From Pseudoalteromonas holothuriae (GTDB taxonomy: Bacteria; Pseudomonadota; Gammaproteobacteria; Enterobacterales; Alteromonadaceae): a stretch of 64,000 nucleotides of DNA. Position 1 is the first letter of the stretch. Every line of letters starts with the position of its first letter. The stretch lies in the NCBI RefSeq assembly GCF_945859825.1, contig NZ_CAMAPC010000002.1, positions 124,001 to 188,000 of the forward strand, in the 5' to 3' direction. Positions 24,898 to 34,882 of the stretch are shown here, piece by piece. Made by a program: the position numbers and the translations under genes. Below the pieces are notes generated by a model. That model was given only the letters and a program-made list of their open reading frames with translations, ran no database searches and was not told the DNA's origin.

Positions 24898-26385
24898 GTG
24901 TCATCGTCATTTATTGTGTGCGAAATAAATAGAGTAACTGGCGAAGTAAAGCTCAATGGTGCCTCACATGTGCTCAGGCCAAAAACACATGAGTTACTTA
25001 TGTTGTTGGCCCAAAACCCGCATCAAGTATTTTCAAAATCGCAAATTTTAACTCAAGTTTGGCAAGACAGCGTGATAGAAGAACAGGTTGTTTTTCAGTC
25101 AATTAATGAGATAAGAAAAGCATTAGGGCAAGCGGATGTTATTACAACTTACCCAAAGAGAGGGTATAAATGGAATGTTGAACGAACGCAGTTTATTGAC
25201 CCTTTAAGTATTTCGGTTCAGAAGAATAAATATGCCCTTAAGTTAGTCGCCGTTTTATTCACCGTACTTTTAGCTATCACTATTGTATATGTTGCTTCAA
25301 TGAGTAGCTCTAACAGCACGATTGAAACTGATGTAAAAGAGCATAAAGGTATATTAGTGCTGCCATTTCAAATTAATGATTCTTTGCAAGATATGCAATG
25401 GCTCAGGTTTGGTGCTATGGAGGGACTGATTAGCTTAATCTCACCGAATCAGCAGGCAACTGTTTTCCATCTTGAAGATGTAATTGATATTCTTAATCGA
25501 GTCGCAATCGGTGAGCGTAAGAACATTGATAAAATCTTTCAAAGGTCAGGGGCATCTCACATACTCGAAACCTCAATTGGTGGGCAACTGGGAGAGTTAA
25601 ACATTGTTTATACACTCTACACTCGCCATAAACATATTACACAAGTATTACATGCTAAAGATATAAATAGCGCACTACCAAAGTTAGCTAAACTGTTTAA
25701 TCATATGCAGAGCATGACAGCGGCGCCATTGAAACAAGTGAATTTACAATTGCAAAATGAGCTGCTCGCAAACGCAATGCGGTTTTTAGAATCAGGAGAC
25801 TCAGATTCTGCTCTTTCTTTTATAGAAAGCGCATTACTTAATCAACCAAATAACATCTTAGCACTGTATTTTTCAGCAAGAATAAATATGGAGTTAGGCA
25901 ATGCTAATGAGGCGATGTTATCGGTGGATAAAGCATTGCTTGAGTTATCAGAAAATCACCTAGATGGCTATAAGCATAGATTACAGTACTTAAAAGCTGC
26001 AGCATTGCTTAGTTTAGGGAACATACAAGAGGCTGAAAATAATTTAATACAAGCCCAAGTGCTTGCTAAAGACAGCTTTGACTGGCTTTACTATGGGTAT
26101 ACACACTCGATACTAGGATTGATCAGGCAGCATCAGCTACGTTTTGGACAAGCAAATCAGCATTTTAATTTGGCATTACAATATCAGCAAATATTAAAAT
26201 GCCCTATGGGTATAGCACAAGGATATTTAGATTTAGCTGGACTGTTGTTTACTCAACAAAAACGACAACTAGGGCAAGAGTATTTATATGCTGCAAGCAA
26301 GCTCATTGAAGAAAAACAACTGACTAAAGTATTACCATTGTTAAAGCAGGTAGAAAAACAGTCTCAAGATGTCAGCTTACGTTAG
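24898..26385 (+). CDS. CadC/ToxR-like membrane transcription regulator with TPRs
   Basis: 495-residue one-component regulator. An OmpR-type winged helix occupies about 1-97 (RPKTHELLMLLAQNP, YPKRGYKWNV at its end). A single membrane helix follows at 112-134, and then a large periplasmic domain with TPR-like helices from about 285. It likely senses a periplasmic signal. The start is GTG with GAGGAA upstream. It is divergent from the amidohydrolase, a likely but unproven target. Confidence 0.87.
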   Translation: MSSSFIVCEINRVTGEVKLNGASHVLRPKTHELLMLLAQNPHQVFSKSQILTQVWQDSVIEEQVVFQSINEIRKALGQADVITTYPKRGYKWNVERTQFIDPLSISVQKNKYALKLVAVLFTVLLAITIVYVASMSSSNSTIETDVKEHKGILVLPFQINDSLQDMQWLRFGAMEGLISLISPNQQATVFHLEDVIDILNRVAIGERKNIDKIFQRSGASHILETSIGGQLGELNIVYTLYTRHKHITQVLHAKDINSALPKLAKLFNHMQSMTAAPLKQVNLQLQNELLANAMRFLESGDSDSALSFIESALLNQPNNILALYFSARINMELGNANEAMLSVDKALLELSENHLDGYKHRLQYLKAAALLSLGNIQEAENNLIQAQVLAKDSFDWLYYGYTHSILGLIRQHQLRFGQANQHFNLALQYQQILKCPMGIAQGYLDLAGLLFTQQKRQLGQEYLYAASKLIEEKQLTKVLPLLKQVEKQSQDVSLR

Positions 26386-26813: not shown

Positions 26814-27515
26814 TTAACAATGGTGAAATGCTTTTTCTGCAAGTGCTTGCGCCAGCATATCAGAAGCATCAACAAACTCTTTGTGGTATTTATCCAGTGG
26901 TAATAAAGGTAAATCTGTACATGCTAAAATCAATTTATCTGACTGTAGCTGTGCAACGATTTCATCAAATTGAGCAACCGTATCTGGGTGCTCGCCACCA
27001 AGGCGTTTTATATCACTGACTAGTGAGTCCATTGCCGCTGGTTTCGGGGTTTCTAACGGATACTTTTTAGCACTGGGAGCGTAGGGAGAATATTGACCAA
27101 ATTCAATCACTTTACTAATTGATAGTAAAGCGACATTGCCATGTTTCTTAATGTAATTTTCGACTACGTCAACAATAGAGATGAATTCAATATTTAGTTT
27201 GAGCTGGTTAATTTTATCAGAAAAATAATGTAGTACATTACAGGCAATACACACATAATCTACTTGACTGTTTAAGCGTTGCAGTACCTCTTGTAATCTT
27301 TGCCATAAGATAGCCTCGTTGCTTTTTATATCCATCGCTAATCCAAGTTGCGGAATTGAATATACGACAACTTCGGGCGCGCTTAAGTCACCTTGGTAAT
27401 GTTCTTTATATAAAGACTTATTGTGCTTTAAAACCTTCTGCCAGAGGTCAATACCGGCATCGGGGCCTGCACCAGTAATGATGCCGATTCGCCCAGGTGT
27501 GGTAATTTGATTCAT
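26814..27515 (-). CDS. aspartate/glutamate racemase family protein
   Basis: 233-residue cofactor-independent racemase. Both catalytic cysteines are present: C92 in CIACN and C199 in LACTDLP. The N-terminal GRIGIITGAGPDAG fits the family's opening glycine-rich strand. It probably racemises Asp, Glu or a related acidic amino acid. It is the last gene of an operon with an EamA exporter (4-bp overlap), a PLP enzyme, an unknown protein and a TusA-like carrier, which suggests a role in making a specialised small molecule. Confidence 0.88.
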   Translation of the reverse strand: MNQITTPGRIGIITGAGPDAGIDLWQKVLKHNKSLYKEHYQGDLSAPEVVVYSIPQLGLAMDIKSNEAILWQRLQEVLQRLNSQVDYVCIACNVLHYFSDKINQLKLNIEFISIVDVVENYIKKHGNVALLSISKVIEFGQYSPYAPSAKKYPLETPKPAAMDSLVSDIKRLGGEHPDTVAQFDEIVAQLQSDKLILACTDLPLLPLDKYHKEFVDASDMLAQALAEKAFHHC

Positions 27516-28405
27516 TGTTGACTCCTTAGCATGCGTTTTCTTCGCAAGGTCCAGTTATTAATTCTGTTATGGAATGACACCACGAGCAGCCCAGTAAAAA
27601 TGATTACACACGCGGTAGCTGAAGTGTTGGTAACTTGCTCGTTTAATAAAATATAAGAGGTGATAATGCCAAATACTGGAACGAGTAGGTTGAATGGTAC
27701 AACCATATTTGCAGGGTAGCGCTTTAGTAGCCAACCCCACAGTGCAAATGCTAATACAGTACCTAGGAGTGATGTGTAGTAAATCGAAAAGCCGCCCATT
27801 AAACTCATATTTTTAAAAGCGTGCCATTGCCCAGTCTCAAGCATTAAAGACAAGCCTAATAAAGGGATAGGTGGAACTAAACAACCCCAGATCAGCAAAG
27901 CGAGCATATCTACATTACCTGCTCGTTTCATAATTATGCTGCTGGCACCATAAAAAAATGCAGCGCCGAGCACAAGTAAAAACGCACTAATAGAGGTAAA
28001 GCTTTCTTTATCTGTTGCGATTAAAGCTATTCCAGATAAGCCAATGAGCACTCCAAATATTTGTATTTTATTAGGAAACTCTTGTAGAACAAAAGCAGAC
28101 AATATCAATGCAAATAATACTGCTGTTTGCAGCACCAAAGAGGTTAACCCAGAAGGCATGCCCCATTTCATCCCAACATACATAAGGCTGAACATAAGCA
28201 CATAGTTCATGCCAAATAGTAGCAAAAATAATGGACTGACTTTAGGGCGTTTAATAAAAAAGACCAAAGGAATACTCGCGGTTAAAAAGCGCAGCGCAGC
28301 ATTAAAAATAGGCGGAAATCCTTGCATACCAATTTCTATTACCGCAAAAGCGGAGCCCCAAATTAATGTTACAAATATTGCAACTAGTATATGTGGGAAC
28401 TTCAT
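27512..28405 (-). CDS. EamA/DMT-family transporter
   Basis: 297-residue drug/metabolite-type permease with about ten membrane helices in two EamA repeats. Typical openings are LIWGSAFAVIEIGMQGFPP in the first repeat and GAAFFYGASSIIMKRA in the second. Family members export amino acids and metabolites. It overlaps both neighbours by four bases, which ties it to the PLP enzyme and racemase. I infer that it exports the operon's product. Confidence 0.92.
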   Translation of the reverse strand: MKFPHILVAIFVTLIWGSAFAVIEIGMQGFPPIFNAALRFLTASIPLVFFIKRPKVSPLFLLLFGMNYVLMFSLMYVGMKWGMPSGLTSLVLQTAVLFALILSAFVLQEFPNKIQIFGVLIGLSGIALIATDKESFTSISAFLLVLGAAFFYGASSIIMKRAGNVDMLALLIWGCLVPPIPLLGLSLMLETGQWHAFKNMSLMGGFSIYYTSLLGTVLAFALWGWLLKRYPANMVVPFNLLVPVFGIITSYILLNEQVTNTSATACVIIFTGLLVVSFHNRINNWTLRRKRMLRSQQ

Positions 28406-29874
28406 ACCATCGCCTCATGCTGAGTGGGTAGTACAACACCCACTTCAGTTAAATAGTCATTAAAGTAACTGCTTAAGGTTTGATTGATATTAAAATAGCT
28501 CTGAGTATCTTGCTTGAACGTTTTGTGTACAAAGTGGTTGTCTTTAGTACGTTTATATTGAGCCATATAATACGCTTTTTGTTTTATGATAGTGCTTAGG
28601 GCTTCGCTAAGTGTATCTATATCACCCTTGTTGGAATATAAGCCAATACTTGCTCTTACCATTCCTTGATAAAGCGGGAGTTGATCTTCATCTTCAATGT
28701 CCCATAACTCGTCAACGAGGCATTCTCGCACAAATGGGTGGGCGCAAAAGCAATCATTTCGAACTGCTATGGCAAAGTAATCATTTAGTATTAGTGCTAA
28801 CAGTTCATGAGGTAAGCCTCTAATATTAAAGCTTACTGCACCAATTCGCTGCGTTTTAACAGAATCAGCATACACTTTTATGTCATCCAACTGTTTTAAA
28901 GTATTGATTAAATACTGAGTGAGCATGCATTCTTTTTGATAAATGACTGGCATGCCTATTTGCCTTAAAAACTCTAATGTTGTCGCCAACATAAAGATTC
29001 CAGGAATATTTAAGGTGCCTGCGTGCTCTTTATCAAATACCTGTTCAGAGAGGGTGAAATCGAATTTTGAAACTTGTGCAACCATACCTCCCCCATAAAA
29101 CTCAGGTTTTAATTGACTCAGCAACTGGGTTTTTCCTATCAAGACTCCAGGAGAGCCTGGGGCATACGTTTTATGGCCAGAAAACACAAAAAAGTCGATA
29201 CTTCTTTGAGGGTTTTCTTGAGCAAGTTCAATGGGGGCATGTGCTGCTAGCTGAGCGCCATCGACTACAATATACGCACCATACTTATGAGCGATTTCGG
29301 CAATATCATAGATTGGACTGATGTGCCCTGAGACATTACTTGCTGCAGTCACCGCAATATAGTTCAATTGCTGTTGATGCTGCTGGCATAGTAACTCTAT
29401 TTTTTTTAAATCAATGCCTTGAAACTCTCCATCGCTGTCATAAATGTTGATGTGAATTACTTTATTACCATGAGCTCGATGTGGTAAGTCGTTAGAGTGG
29501 TGCTCCATTAAAGATACTAATACCGTTTTTTTGTCGCGACGTAATTCGCTCAGGCCTTTAGCAAGGCGATTCAAAGGCGATGTAGCACCATTACCATGGA
29601 AAATGGCACTGTAACCTTGTTCTGCACCGAAAAATGATAAAATACTTTGGTGAGCCCAAGTTACTACGCCGGAGCTAACTTTTGCACTCAGATGAACTGA
29701 TGAGTGCGTATTAGAATAATATTTTAAGAACGCTTGAGTTGCTTGCTGTGCTGGCAACAATGCTAAAGTTGAAGCGGCTGAGTCTAAATATGTTCGAGGG
29801 AGGTTTTTACCCTGTGCATTAGCACACATAAAATCGGTACCTATAAAGGCTTTTTTAAAACAATTAAACGACAT
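28402..29874 (-). CDS. class V aminotransferase, cysteine-desulfurase-like, with C-terminal extension
   Basis: 490-residue PLP enzyme of the SufS/CsdA type. The cofactor lysine is K235 in SGHKTYAPG, with D205 (VVDGAQ) and EHHSND at 125-130. The sulfur-accepting position is C377 in RNDCFCAHP, next to C375, suggesting true cysteine desulfurase or selenocysteine-lyase chemistry. The family is about 400-420 residues; here about 70 extra residues form a charged tail after the usual end. It overlaps the unknown gene (11 bp) and the EamA gene (4 bp). A TusA-like acceptor is encoded in the same operon. Confidence 0.88.
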   Translation of the reverse strand: MSFNCFKKAFIGTDFMCANAQGKNLPRTYLDSAASTLALLPAQQATQAFLKYYSNTHSSVHLSAKVSSGVVTWAHQSILSFFGAEQGYSAIFHGNGATSPLNRLAKGLSELRRDKKTVLVSLMEHHSNDLPHRAHGNKVIHINIYDSDGEFQGIDLKKIELLCQQHQQQLNYIAVTAASNVSGHISPIYDIAEIAHKYGAYIVVDGAQLAAHAPIELAQENPQRSIDFFVFSGHKTYAPGSPGVLIGKTQLLSQLKPEFYGGGMVAQVSKFDFTLSEQVFDKEHAGTLNIPGIFMLATTLEFLRQIGMPVIYQKECMLTQYLINTLKQLDDIKVYADSVKTQRIGAVSFNIRGLPHELLALILNDYFAIAVRNDCFCAHPFVRECLVDELWDIEDEDQLPLYQGMVRASIGLYSNKGDIDTLSEALSTIIKQKAYYMAQYKRTKDNHFVHKTFKQDTQSYFNINQTLSSYFNDYLTEVGVVLPTQHEAMV

Positions 29875-30664
29875 CAGCTTCTTCCTTGTGCTTTATTTCG
29901 GTAAAATTTTCCTCAAAATAGCTATCATCATCACAAAACAAATTAATGAACGGTTGTGGTAACTCATAAACTTGTTTGGCCACAAATATGCCAAGACGGA
30001 TTCGTTCTATATAGATATCGTTGAATATATTCACAAATAGTAAGTCTGGATTACTTTGTGCGATACGATAAAATAGCGTTGCTAAAATTAGATTGCACTT
30101 GGGGTTACTGCCTTCTTTCATGACCAGTGGTAACCCTTCAGGACCTGTGATTGCATATACGCTTTTACCTACTTCAATACTGCAACTATCAAGGTCGATA
30201 CAACGTACTAAGTCAGGGTCTTCACTCGTTAATTTTTGAAAGCCCTCGGGGTTTTGTTTAATCTTTTGGCGCAATAGTGTGGAAGCCTTATTTCGTGATG
30301 CGCTCTCAAAAATCACCTCCACTGTAGTGACTGGAATTTGAGCGTGCTGCAAAATACTGACATAGTTTTGTGGCAGGGCAAATTGTTGTTTTAGCTGTTC
30401 TCGCTGCTCAGAACTAATACCAATATCATTGACCCATAAGATCAGACGAGCAGTAATCGATTGTTTAACAAGAGCACGGTATACTGCGATACCTAAAGCA
30501 AATGAAAAATGTTCAGCTTCGCCTTCATGAGATAGTTCCGACAATTGGGGGGCAACACAATAGTGACCTGCAAGTATGGCAACCTCTTTATTCGGTTTTG
30601 CTGTTTTGGTCTGAATGATCTTTGCAACTAAAGATGATGGTGCTTGAGGCAAATGGCTTTGCAT
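29864..30664 (-). CDS. unrecognised protein in sulfur-transfer operon
   Basis: 266-residue soluble protein that I cannot assign to a family. It has no signal peptide or membrane segment. Cysteines at 36 (GHYCVAP), 155, 161 (CIDLDSCS), 190 and 244 could serve in sulfur transfer, metal binding or thioester chemistry. It lies between tusA-like (15-bp gap) and the desulfurase-like gene (11-bp overlap), so it is certainly translated with them. It may be the pathway's scaffold or key enzyme, which is inference only. Confidence 0.8.
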   Translation of the reverse strand: MQSHLPQAPSSLVAKIIQTKTAKPNKEVAILAGHYCVAPQLSELSHEGEAEHFSFALGIAVYRALVKQSITARLILWVNDIGISSEQREQLKQQFALPQNYVSILQHAQIPVTTVEVIFESASRNKASTLLRQKIKQNPEGFQKLTSEDPDLVRCIDLDSCSIEVGKSVYAITGPEGLPLVMKEGSNPKCNLILATLFYRIAQSNPDLLFVNIFNDIYIERIRLGIFVAKQVYELPQPFINLFCDDDSYFEENFTEIKHKEEADVV

Positions 30665-30679
30665 AACATATCACTCCAC

Positions 30680-30907
30680 TTATAATTTTTTTATGATATA
30701 AATGTCGTGATCTGTATTTTTTGATTCTTCGATAACTTGACAGCTTCCACGTTGGCAAAAGCGTGCTAAGTCGCTTTTTGTATTTGGATCTGTGATCATT
30801 AGTTTAAGTAAATCTCCTGAAGCCATATTCTTCAGTGCTTTTTTTGTTCTTAATAGCGGGACTGGGCAGGTAAAGCCTTTTAAATCCAACTCCTGTGCTA
30901 TATTCAT
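30680..30907 (-). CDS. TusA-family sulfurtransferase
   Basis: 75-residue SirA/TusA-type sulfur carrier. The CPVP motif at 14-17 puts the persulfide-bearing Cys at C14, followed by LLRTKKAL. TusA receives sulfur from a cysteine desulfurase and hands it on, for example to tRNA or a biosynthetic enzyme. An extra CQRGSC pair lies near 50-55. AAGGAATGAACG precedes the start. It opens the operon that includes a desulfurase-like gene. Confidence 0.92.
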   Translation of the reverse strand: MNIAQELDLKGFTCPVPLLRTKKALKNMASGDLLKLMITDPNTKSDLARFCQRGSCQVIEESKNTDHDIYIIKKL

Positions 30908-31311: not shown

Positions 31312-32736
31312 ATGCTTAAACTTTTGCTATCCTGGCATAAAAAACTTGCCTTATTTGCTGTCATTCCTTTTATGGTGTGGGCATTAAGTGGTTTACTCCA
31401 CCCTATGATGTTGCACTTTACCAAAACTGAGCGACTCAGTGACCGTGTATCACCTATTGATTACTCAAAACTTGAAAATTATCAGCCAATTAAAGCCGTT
31501 TTGCAGCGAGAGAACATAGCACGCTTGAGTCATGCCAGCCTTGTTGAGTACCAAAATACCTATTATTACCAAGTGGCTTACTTGGAACAAGGACAGCGGA
31601 AAATTGCTTATTTTCCTCTTAGTAAGAGTAAGGTAGCGGCATCGCTTTCAGACCCTCAATATGCAGAATACTTGGCTCATAAATGGGCGTTACAGGGTAC
31701 TATCAGTGTTGAAAAGCTTACTGAATTTGATACAGCGTATGGGGCAATCAATCGTATTTTACCTGTTTATCGTGTATTGCTAGATAATGGTAATCGCCTA
31801 TATATAGACACTCTAGGGCAGAGAATTTCAGCGCATAATACGCAATTACGTGAACAGCTCTCTTATTGGTTTAGAACACTCCACACCTTTAGCTTTATAG
31901 GTGATAAGCATAGTTATATTCGCATTATTCCTATGTTGATTGTGACCGTAACACTATTTTTTATGGGTCTACTGGGCTTAATTGCTTACAGCGTATTATG
32001 GAAAAAGCTCAGCAACAAGCAGGGGAAAGTGGCTAAATTGCACCGAGTATCCGGTTTGGTTTTAAGCTTATGTATGTTGGGTTTTGCATCGAGTAGTTCA
32101 CATATTTTAATCGATAAGTTTTATCCTCAAAAATTTCTTACATTAATACCAGCAAACTCGATTCAAACTGCTCAGATAAATCATGACCCGATATCAGTAC
32201 TAGCGCAAGCGCAAGGCGATAATTTTGTGCTGGTGAGTGTAGGGCAAGGTGTTTATAGTCAAGTTGTGACAAGTGAAAACCGCACTCAGAATTATCAATA
32301 CTGGCAGCAAAATCAAGCGGCTATAAGCAATACTATACTTGCAAAAAGTATCTTGCAAAACCAGTTAAATGTGAGAGGTGAGCTGATTCATAGTCAAAAA
32401 GTTGATAAATTTGGGCCAACTTATGGTTTTATCAATAAACGATTACCCGTTATGCAGCTTCGTTATCAATCACAGCCAGATGTATTGTATAGTATAGAAC
32501 TTAGCTCAGGCTATATTGCTGCTATCGAGAATAGCTGGCAAAAAGCACGGAGTTTGCATTTTGGATACTTACACAAGTATCATTTCTTAAATCCACTTTC
32601 TAAAGAAGTAAGAGATATTATTATCACCCTAATTATCCTGGGCTTGGTATTTAGCGCAGTCATGGGGCTTTGTTTATATTTAGCGCGCCGAAAAAGGCAG
32701 CAGCAAGCTTTACAACGTCGTTTATCAACTATCTAA
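31312..32736 (+). CDS. PepSY-associated inner-membrane protein
   Basis: 474-residue protein of the PepSY_TM type, often paired with siderophore receptors and thought to act as a ferric-chelate reductase. Membrane helices lie at about 10-30, 204-228, 245-262 and 440-462. Histidines at the membrane edges (LSWHKKLALF, RTLHTFSF, KLHRVSGLVL) could bind haem. The gene is followed 25 bp later by a TonB receptor and is divergent from the tusA operon. Confidence 0.85.
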   Translation: MLKLLLSWHKKLALFAVIPFMVWALSGLLHPMMLHFTKTERLSDRVSPIDYSKLENYQPIKAVLQRENIARLSHASLVEYQNTYYYQVAYLEQGQRKIAYFPLSKSKVAASLSDPQYAEYLAHKWALQGTISVEKLTEFDTAYGAINRILPVYRVLLDNGNRLYIDTLGQRISAHNTQLREQLSYWFRTLHTFSFIGDKHSYIRIIPMLIVTVTLFFMGLLGLIAYSVLWKKLSNKQGKVAKLHRVSGLVLSLCMLGFASSSSHILIDKFYPQKFLTLIPANSIQTAQINHDPISVLAQAQGDNFVLVSVGQGVYSQVVTSENRTQNYQYWQQNQAAISNTILAKSILQNQLNVRGELIHSQKVDKFGPTYGFINKRLPVMQLRYQSQPDVLYSIELSSGYIAAIENSWQKARSLHFGYLHKYHFLNPLSKEVRDIIITLIILGLVFSAVMGLCLYLARRKRQQQALQRRLSTI

Positions 32737-32761
32737 TTACAATAAAACTAAAAGGAATATC

Positions 32762-34882
32762 ATGAATCCTCGCTTTTCATACTCTTTGCTCGCCCTTACT
32801 CTGGTGCAAATTTACCCATATCAAGCAAATGCAGAGACCTTAGCAGGCGATAATGTAGAGCGGATCACGGTTACTTCCACACGTACAGCTAAAGCAAATA
32901 CTGATTTACCACTAAGTATTGGCAGTGTCTCATCGCAAACGTTAGCCAATGATAACGCGCAGCACATATCAGATTCACTACAAACGATTTCAGGTGTGTT
33001 ATTGAACCAGTTATCTGGTGGGCAAGGGCATAATGCAGCTATACGCATGCCGATTAATTTTGGCGGCTATACTTTGTATTTACAAGACAATATCCCATTA
33101 CAATCTGCTGCGTTCTATAATCACAACGCGTTATGGTGGGCAAGTAGTAATGCCAGTTTGTCGCGTTTAGAAGTATTAAAAGGAGCTGGTACTAGCTTAT
33201 ATGGATCCGGTGCCGTGGCAGCCACGGTGAATGTTATTTCAGCACCTATAGCAACTAATAGCAATACGCTTTCTTTAACATTTGCAGAGCAGGGGTATAA
33301 GCGTTTTGCAGGCAGCTTTACACAGCTGAATGAGACTAATGATGGTTTTCGTGTATCAGGGGCATACCTTAGTAATGACGGATGGCGTACGCATAGCGCT
33401 GTAAATAAAGCGGAAATTAATTTACTTCATGAAAAACAGCTTGATGACAAGCAGCATTTTAAAACATCTTTAGTTGTTTCTTCTTTAGAACAACAAATGC
33501 TGAATACGTTGACTGAAGCGCAATTTATTCAAGACCCAACGCAGGCCGGTTTACCTGAGGAAGTGTTGCAGATAGACCCTAAGCGTAAAACAGATTACTT
33601 TCGTTTAAGTACAGAATATCGTTTTGATAGTAATGATTTCTACGCATCGGTGATACCCTATGCACGTTATCGAACGAACGATTATATTGCCACATGGCAA
33701 CCTAACATGCCTAAAGTGGAGTCAACCGTCACGTCATTTGGGGTGCTTGCACTTAGCAACTTTATTCACAGTAGTGGTGGAGAAACCACATTAGGTGTTG
33801 ATGTTGAGCACTCATCAGGTGAGGGGTATTCTTTTCAGCCGACTGAACGCACAACCAGTGGCTGGGGTGCTGCGACTTACCCAAAAGACCATGTGTTTTA
33901 TAAAAACGATACTACCTTTATCGGCGTTTCTCCTTATGTTCAGCATTTAGGCTATTTTTCACCGAATTTAAGCTATTCACTGGGTGTTCGCTTTGATCAT
34001 AATAAGTACACGTTTGACAATGCTTTGCCAGTTTATAGTGATGATGGTTTTGGTAATCGGTCGATTGCATCTCGCTCTGATACATTTAAGCATTTAAGTC
34101 CTAAACTGAGCTTAAATTATTTGCTAAATGCACAATCGAGTATTTATAGTCGCTATGCTCAAGCTATTCGCATTCCAACTGCTTCACAATTGTATGACCT
34201 AAAAACCGAACAAAGCAGCGCCCAATTAGGCAGCATTAATGAGGAAACTTCTGATACTTACGAGGTGGGATACAAAGCCAATTTTGATAAATTATCTATC
34301 GAACTTGCTTATTACTTAATGGATGTAAACGACGCTATAGTTACCGCTTATGATGACTTGGGTGCTTCGTATCGTGTGAATGCATCAAGCGTTGAGCACA
34401 CTGGTGCTGAGTTAGGACTCACCTATAATTTTAATAAGGCGTTTTCATTTGCATTAGCATACAGTCAATCTAAACATGAGTTTAAACATTATATTCAAGA
34501 TAAAGGAAGGGTTGACCGAAAAACTCAGCAAATGCTAGAGCAAGACTTATCAGGTAAAAGCCTGCAAATGGCACCTGATTATGTTGCCAATATAAGGTTT
34601 AATTATACCAGCCAAACAATAGCAGGGTTGTTTGTTACAGCAGAGGTACAAAGTATTGGTGACTATTACTTAAATGTTGAAAATACACAGCAATATTCGG
34701 GCTATACCGTAATTAATTTTAAAGCCAATTATGCGTTAACAAATAAGCTGAAGCTGCACGCTCGAGTAAGCAACTTCAACGATAGAAAGTATGCCTTACA
34801 AAATGAAATTCGCTATGGTAGAACGCGTATTCAACCGGGCGCGCCGAGAACACTGTATGTTGGTCTAAAGTACCAATTTTAG
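32762..34882 (+). CDS. TonB-dependent outer-membrane receptor
   Basis: 706-residue receptor. The signal peptide ends at A24 (YQANA). The TonB box region is ERITVTSTR at about 33-41. The plug domain includes ISGVLLNQLSGGQG and the LEVLKGAGTSLYGSGAVAATVNV stretch, split over conserved plug strands. A long beta barrel ends in VGLKYQF. It likely imports an iron or other metal complex with the PepSY protein encoded upstream. AAGGAATATC precedes the ATG. Confidence 0.93.
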   Translation: MNPRFSYSLLALTLVQIYPYQANAETLAGDNVERITVTSTRTAKANTDLPLSIGSVSSQTLANDNAQHISDSLQTISGVLLNQLSGGQGHNAAIRMPINFGGYTLYLQDNIPLQSAAFYNHNALWWASSNASLSRLEVLKGAGTSLYGSGAVAATVNVISAPIATNSNTLSLTFAEQGYKRFAGSFTQLNETNDGFRVSGAYLSNDGWRTHSAVNKAEINLLHEKQLDDKQHFKTSLVVSSLEQQMLNTLTEAQFIQDPTQAGLPEEVLQIDPKRKTDYFRLSTEYRFDSNDFYASVIPYARYRTNDYIATWQPNMPKVESTVTSFGVLALSNFIHSSGGETTLGVDVEHSSGEGYSFQPTERTTSGWGAATYPKDHVFYKNDTTFIGVSPYVQHLGYFSPNLSYSLGVRFDHNKYTFDNALPVYSDDGFGNRSIASRSDTFKHLSPKLSLNYLLNAQSSIYSRYAQAIRIPTASQLYDLKTEQSSAQLGSINEETSDTYEVGYKANFDKLSIELAYYLMDVNDAIVTAYDDLGASYRVNASSVEHTGAELGLTYNFNKAFSFALAYSQSKHEFKHYIQDKGRVDRKTQQMLEQDLSGKSLQMAPDYVANIRFNYTSQTIAGLFVTAEVQSIGDYYLNVENTQQYSGYTVINFKANYALTNKLKLHARVSNFNDRKYALQNEIRYGRTRIQPGAPRTLYVGLKYQF

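Follow-up and report, generated by a model that had tools for sequence, protein, structure and literature searches.

What does a bacterium make with a compact operon that places two sulfur-transfer genes beside an exporter, an amino-acid racemase and a protein of no recognised family? The question is raised by a 64,000-nucleotide stretch of the Pseudoalteromonas holothuriae genome (contig NZ_CAMAPC010000002.1, positions 124,001 to 188,000 of the forward strand), which we call the window. Five minus-strand genes within it (Table 1) encode, in order from the upstream end, a TusA-like sulfur carrier, a 266-residue protein referred to here as X, a SufS-like pyridoxal phosphate (PLP) enzyme that we call the desulfurase, an EamA exporter and a member of the Asp/Glu racemase superfamily. 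Our tentative reading is that they may be a cassette acquired by horizontal transfer, with an orphan pathway for making a small amino-acid derivative that contains sulfur and for exporting it. An earlier, sequence-only reading of the window knew of no described pathway with this gene set, and none was found in the open-licence full texts searched.

Distribution and co-location of the gene set

X was searched for in six overlapping genome sets, amounting to 1,732 genome searches and a smaller number of distinct genomes. It is present in 1 of 394 genomes of the window's order, 1 of 108 of its genus, 2 of 369 of its class and 1 of 398 of its phylum, and in 1 of 397 and 1 of 66 genomes of the Aquimarina family and genus, respectively. 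Three genomes carry it in all: the window's own, that of Aquimarina sp. RZ0 (G498, Bacteroidota), and a third, G913, which belongs to the window's class and is the sole genome in the sets for its own family and order. A peptide-pattern scan of GTDB species genomes, a method that detects close relatives only, reduced 109 candidate stretches to one relative, the Aquimarina protein. Two queries against 72,556 plasmid records gave no match to X, and two scans of viral contigs yielded no confirmed one. A 24-kb stretch of the window has matches in just two records of the plasmid collection, both from Pseudoalteromonas, at 76% identity and covering 14% of the query.

In Aquimarina, X, the desulfurase, the EamA exporter and the racemase are consecutive, with order and strand as in the window and with identities to the window's proteins of 51%, 54%, 61% and 46%; downstream of the four are an M20 peptidase and then a dihydroorotate dehydrogenase gene. 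Between the start of the X frame and the contig end are 91 bases. The genome's sole TusA match (E <= 0.001), 49% identical to the window's, is on another contig, where the gene ends 200 bases from the contig start and points toward that terminus. This arrangement fits, but does not prove, a fifth cassette gene separated from the others by an assembly break. Beside this tusA, at the contig end, is a 50-base perfect palindrome (L003 45-94) that is perhaps the end of an insertion element or an assembly artefact, and about 1.4 kb upstream of the gene (L003 426-1854) holds no open reading frame of at least 60 residues. Some 3.6 kb beyond the Aquimarina racemase, on its downstream side (L002 7602-8228), is a gene for an exporter of the LysE type, a family that exports amino acids; it is probably unrelated.

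In G913 the racemase gene comes 11 bp after that of X, and the two proteins are 43% (X) and 42% (racemase) identical to their counterparts in the window. Reading by eye, with five neighbours scanned, we recognised no desulfurase, EamA or TusA gene beside this pair, and the genome's desulfurase matches, of generic strength, sit elsewhere. A divergent LysR-type regulator gene 297 bp upstream of X (L008 6765-7685) is a candidate regulator of the pair. The racemase is therefore a neighbour of X in all three genomes, and the desulfurase and EamA exporter in two of the three.

The five genes form one operon and a conserved, co-located set, and the operon is more than a chance grouping because a Bacteroidota genome has four of its genes in matching order. 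The sequence-only reading had suggested a neighbourhood search for the 266-residue protein and had raised the prospect that the genes are rarely co-located; the set is rare, yet together where it is found, and that objection does not apply. Because the gene order is kept across phyla and the set is absent from nearly all genomes searched, the cassette is best read as having moved horizontally as a block. Base composition does not mark it as foreign: its G+C is 0.393 against 0.405 for the window, and 35% of equal-length blocks are equally low. A phage origin was set aside, with no PHROG found for the window's X, the G913 X or the window's TusA and the Aquimarina X giving a single weak row (E 0.0024); so was an anti-phage system, the desulfurase having only generic SspA/DndA matches in PADLOC and the other four proteins none.

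Predicted fold and motifs of X

Nothing in Pfam exceeds the cut-off for X, the sole row being XPC-binding (E 0.011; 15.8 bits against a cut-off of 26.4). NCBIfam, PADLOC and PHROGs return no row for the window's X, and comparison by sequence with solved structures gives best E-values of 0.7 and 1.1. X had been put down as unrecognised, and at the level of families it still is; it is now, however, predicted to have the HUP/Rossmann catalytic fold of a class I aminoacyl-tRNA synthetase (aaRS), nearest that of arginyl-tRNA synthetase (ArgRS). The structural match covers residues 21-250, and in a Foldseek search with the second of two structure models ArgRS ranks first, with TM-scores of about 0.42 to 0.51.

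Several results weigh against this prediction and what is built upon it. The two models rest on alignments of 2 and 3 rows. The top Foldseek rows for the first model are an unrelated reverse transcriptase (probability 0.23) and an NAD+ synthetase (0.99), with ArgRS third, and for the second model NAD+ synthetases and other HUP folds come close behind ArgRS. Alignment of X with E. coli ArgRS and CysRS by hhalign, from a thin profile (Neff 1.7), gives probabilities of 0.5% and 0.1%; PF00750, searched at E <= 1, does not match X in the window's genome, in Aquimarina or in G913; and none of the sequence methods used ties X to any aaRS.

In addition to this lack of sequence-level similarity, X appears to lack several features of ArgRS. 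The HIGH motif, whose counterpart in E. coli ArgRS (HVGH, 129-132) was set against X by eye, is apparently not kept, the three homologues reading SHEGEAE, SNEGESE and SHDSDAE there, also by eye. The KTRAGGT loop at 381-387 of E. coli ArgRS, which we take to be the KMSKS equivalent, would be expected between the final two strands of X (239-245 and 248-252); 2 residues connect these strands and the chain terminates shortly beyond them, so the KMSKS loop seems not to be kept either. The two other homologues have a similar end point and, by eye, no KMSKS-like string. With lengths of 266, 259 and 249 residues, the homologues have no tRNA-binding or anticodon domain. Since HIGH and KMSKS appear lost in all three sequences, conventional tRNA charging by X is unlikely.

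Four cysteines (Cys36, Cys155, Cys161 and Cys190) and the blocks AGHYC, NDIGI, FES, KEG-NPKCNLIL and NIFN-IY-RIR are invariant in the three homologues. We considered a CysRS-like zinc site, since by eye Cys36 and Cys190 match what we take to be the CysRS ligands Cys28 and Cys209; we do not claim it, because the other two places read D/E in the window and D/D in Aquimarina but A/N in G913.

A small, stand-alone class I aaRS-like domain without HIGH, as the models of X suggest, has a parallel in the cyclodipeptide synthases (CDPSs) of the AlbC type. CDPSs are described as class I synthetase domains that have diverged strongly, with TyrRS and TrpRS as their nearest relatives; they have lost HIGH, use aminoacyl-tRNAs and carry the active-site signature GxSxxp after strand 1 (PMC2922099). 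In contrast, X is nearest ArgRS in its models, has AGHYC rather than GxSxxp in the place after strand 1, and has a racemase, TusA, a desulfurase and an EamA exporter as partners. No solved CDPS is among the best 50 structural matches listed for X, an absence that excludes nothing. X would be a case comparable to the CDPSs but separate from them, nearer ArgRS. A second parallel is the mycothiol cysteine ligase MshC, an aaRS-like amino-acid ligase outside translation that is matched by the second model of X in Foldseek (probability 0.91). MshC keeps HIGH, KMSKS and a zinc site; X appears not to have kept the two motifs.

These parallels suggest that X might join amino acids in the manner of a CDPS or of the mycothiol ligase, with the desulfurase and TusA modifying the product or managing cysteine and the racemase supplying a D-residue. 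Such a role would suit a class I aaRS-like fold predicted to be without HIGH and KMSKS, the MshC match, the presence of X and the racemase alone in G913, and the loss of HIGH described for CDPSs (PMC2922099). It is harder to square with GHYC in the place of GxSxxp, which is not seen, and with an operon that has no second ligase or tailoring oxidase. Nor does a CDPS family, of a kind that Pfam includes, appear among the Pfam rows of two X homologues at E <= 10, and on balance we regard this alternative as somewhat unlikely.

Other HUP-fold enzymes, namely YcfA of the 6-thioguanine cluster and the tRNA thiolases, are fed with sulfur by PLP enzymes, and X could by analogy be the thiolase of a tRNA or nucleotide thiolation system. 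The HUP-like fold of its models and the adjoining TusA and desulfurase agree with this, as do Foldseek rows for YcfA (9kq9_F; second model, rank 8, probability 0.90) and a tRNA thiolase (6scy; first model, rank 26, probability 0.14). However, the ArgRS rows have TM-scores of 0.42 to 0.51 and YcfA one of 0.29, and the PP-loop SGGxDS of YcfA and the tRNA thiolases is not seen by eye in the three X sequences. The operon, moreover, adds a racemase and TusA to the likeness with the 6-thioguanine cluster, and thiolation would leave the racemase and the amino-acid-type exporter with no role. We consider it very unlikely.

Sulfur transfer proteins

The TusA-like protein matches the Pfam TusA domain at 70.1 bits (cut-off 28.6) and has the cysteine of the CPxP motif, here CPVP; against the NCBIfam TusA equivalog its score, 49.4, is short of the cut-off of 78. 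In the desulfurase, the PLP lysine (Lys235, within SGHK) and catalytic Cys377, which it shares with SufS/CsdA and MOCOS-type desulfurases, are invariant in the window and Aquimarina sequences. Unlike those enzymes it lies below the SufS cut-off (TIGR01979; 246.3 bits against 475.1) and has a C-terminal extension of about 60 residues, and it passes no cut-off among the 25 NCBIfam models listed. Its active-site loop, which the sequence-only reading had not mentioned, reads RNDCFCAHP, where that of SufS reads RxGHHCA; the CFCAHP part resembles MOCOS. Together the desulfurase and TusA would imply delivery of sulfane sulfur, as is established for their families. The window's genome has four other matches to the desulfurase.

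A Methylobacterium plasmid protein, 33% identical to the desulfurase, has the CFCAHP loop and part of the extension. At that locus (L025 7345-9254) the PLP enzyme and a DUF4395 protein lie amid copper and heavy-metal genes, possibly as a separate sulfur-transfer pair, and no adjoining annotated feature resembles a divergent X.

Exporter, racemase and substrate

The best curated model for the EamA protein is the O-acetylserine/cysteine exporter NF008523, at 157.8 bits and below its cut-off of 472. That nearest match would suit a system for cysteine or sulfide homeostasis, in which the desulfurase removes excess cysteine, the exporter releases it, D-cysteine or cysteine persulfide is made or cleared, and X acts as a persulfide synthase or sensor. 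CysRS is reported as a source of cysteine persulfide (PMC5660078). The rarity of X (1 of 108 genomes of the genus and 1 of 394 of the order) is nevertheless unlike a housekeeping function, and the occurrence of X and the racemase alone would be left unexplained; homeostasis therefore seems to us rather unlikely.

The racemase shares its superfamily and both catalytic cysteines with cysteate racemase (CuyB) and the aspartate racemases, but it scores far below the cut-offs of their models (78.7 bits against 190, and 47.2 against 93.1). Cys92 and Cys199 are kept in all four sequences compared. Where the aligned aspartate racemases of the PDB read PDR, these four read GLA, GKV, GLA and GLS, so that none has arginine and the Aquimarina one has lysine. 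The arginine of the PDR motif holds the side-chain carboxylate, and its absence from the racemase makes an acidic amino acid less sure. The sequence-only reading had expected a small D- or acidic amino-acid-derived product; an account combining sulfur, stereochemistry and export is still the best fit, and it is the acidic part of that expectation that has weakened.

The nearest plasmid relative of the racemase, 38% identical, is in an Ensifer operon (L024 7941-11064) with an asparaginase-domain protein and an aspartate ammonia-lyase. By analogy the substrate would be aspartate or asparagine and not cysteine, a point that counts against our reading. The Ensifer operon itself resembles a pathway for the use of D-aspartate or asparagine, and has no adjoining annotated feature resembling a divergent X. 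The sulfur step could be incidental, X and the racemase forming an aspartate- or asparagine-related pathway that gained the remaining three genes to provide export and to meet other sulfur needs. The Ensifer neighbourhood and the X-racemase pair of G913 speak for this; the missing PDR arginine and the close linkage of the genes, seen in two phyla, speak against it, and we consider it improbable.

A proposed pathway and its main objection

What is observed is the gene set, its joint conservation and the key residues, while the fold of X and the loss of its motifs are predictions. For the cassette reading that we tentatively prefer, we infer all of the following chemical steps. The desulfurase would take sulfur off cysteine and load it onto TusA. 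X would bind an amino acid, either tRNA-activated, in the style of the CDPSs, or through an altered activation, and its invariant cysteines would receive the sulfur, which X would then use to form the product. The racemase would fix the stereochemistry of the substrate or of the product, and the EamA protein, of the cysteine/O-acetylserine exporter type, would release the product. X is cast as the likely sulfur acceptor and joining enzyme because it combines a fold of an amino-acid-binding type with apparently lost ATP motifs and four invariant cysteines.

The main objection comes from G913, in which X and the racemase have no sulfur genes beside them. X and the racemase are likely the core, and the other genes a sulfur-supply and export module that in one lineage is not beside X. 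In G913 housekeeping sulfur carriers could serve instead, or the chemistry of X could be other than sulfur-based, in which case amino-acid coupling of the CDPS or MshC kind would be the better reading.

A more specific version, which we think distinctly unlikely, is that X is another, independent conversion of a class I aaRS domain into a biosynthetic enzyme lacking the ATP motifs, in which the acyl group of an aminoacyl-tRNA or adenylate is attacked by TusA-delivered sulfur, giving an amino thioacid or a related D-amino-acid sulfur compound for export by the EamA protein. If true, this would be a sulfur pathway that depends on tRNA and of which the literature searched gives no description. 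If the broader proposal is right, a protein family absent from the libraries searched joins the few stripped-down aaRSs reused for small-molecule chemistry, and does so in a compact, exportable pathway that couples such reuse to persulfide delivery and amino-acid racemisation.

Operon layout and neighbouring genes

Table 1. Genes of the operon and an upstream palindrome, in window coordinates.
Feature	Position	Strand	Details
TusA-like sulfur carrier	30680..30907	-	75 aa; CPVP motif; PF01206 E 1.5e-19
X (class I aaRS-like fold, predicted)	29864..30664	-	266 aa; no family above a cut-off
SufS-like PLP enzyme	28402..29874	-	490 aa; Aminotran_5 E 3.1e-71
EamA exporter	27512..28405	-	297 aa; PF00892 E 2.4e-33
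Asp/Glu-racemase superfamily enzyme	26814..27515	-	233 aa; PF01177 (Asp_Glu_race) E 7.2e-9
Perfect 16-bp palindrome TTTCATGCGCATGAAA	31001..31016	.	93 bp upstream of tusA start

From tusA on, the genes are joined by a 15-bp gap and then by overlaps of 11, 4 and 4 bp. Open reading frame calls agree with the sequence-only reading on the five minus-strand genes, their coordinates and these junctions (a 15-bp gap and overlaps of 4-11 bp). Pfam matches confirm the TusA, Aminotran_5, EamA and Asp_Glu_race identities, and the residues it had singled out, namely the lysine and cysteine of the desulfurase and the catalytic cysteines of the racemase, are among those described above as kept. The palindrome TTTCATGCGCATGAAA, of which the window holds no second exact copy, is a possible operator of the operon.

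The sequence-only reading had also taken a divergent PepSY/TonB pair (31312-34882) as a hint of uptake of the same molecule, perhaps a sulfur-containing metallophore. Neither idea is supported: among ten neighbours scanned at the compared loci (L002, L004 and L008) none is PepSY or TonB-dependent, the remaining open reading frames there being read by eye, and we found no evidence for a metallophore product. The pair is not counted as part of the operon. A tblastn search of plasmids with the TonB protein returned only distant receptors, at best 28.8% identical.

No Rfam family reaches its gathering score in the window, on the Aquimarina tusA contig or at the G913 locus. A CadC-like regulator gene (Trans_reg_C and TPR domains; 24898-26385) is convergent with the operon. 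A promoter scan gave 5 promoter-like sites, against 16.5 in shuffles, and 8 terminator-like sites, against 4.0.

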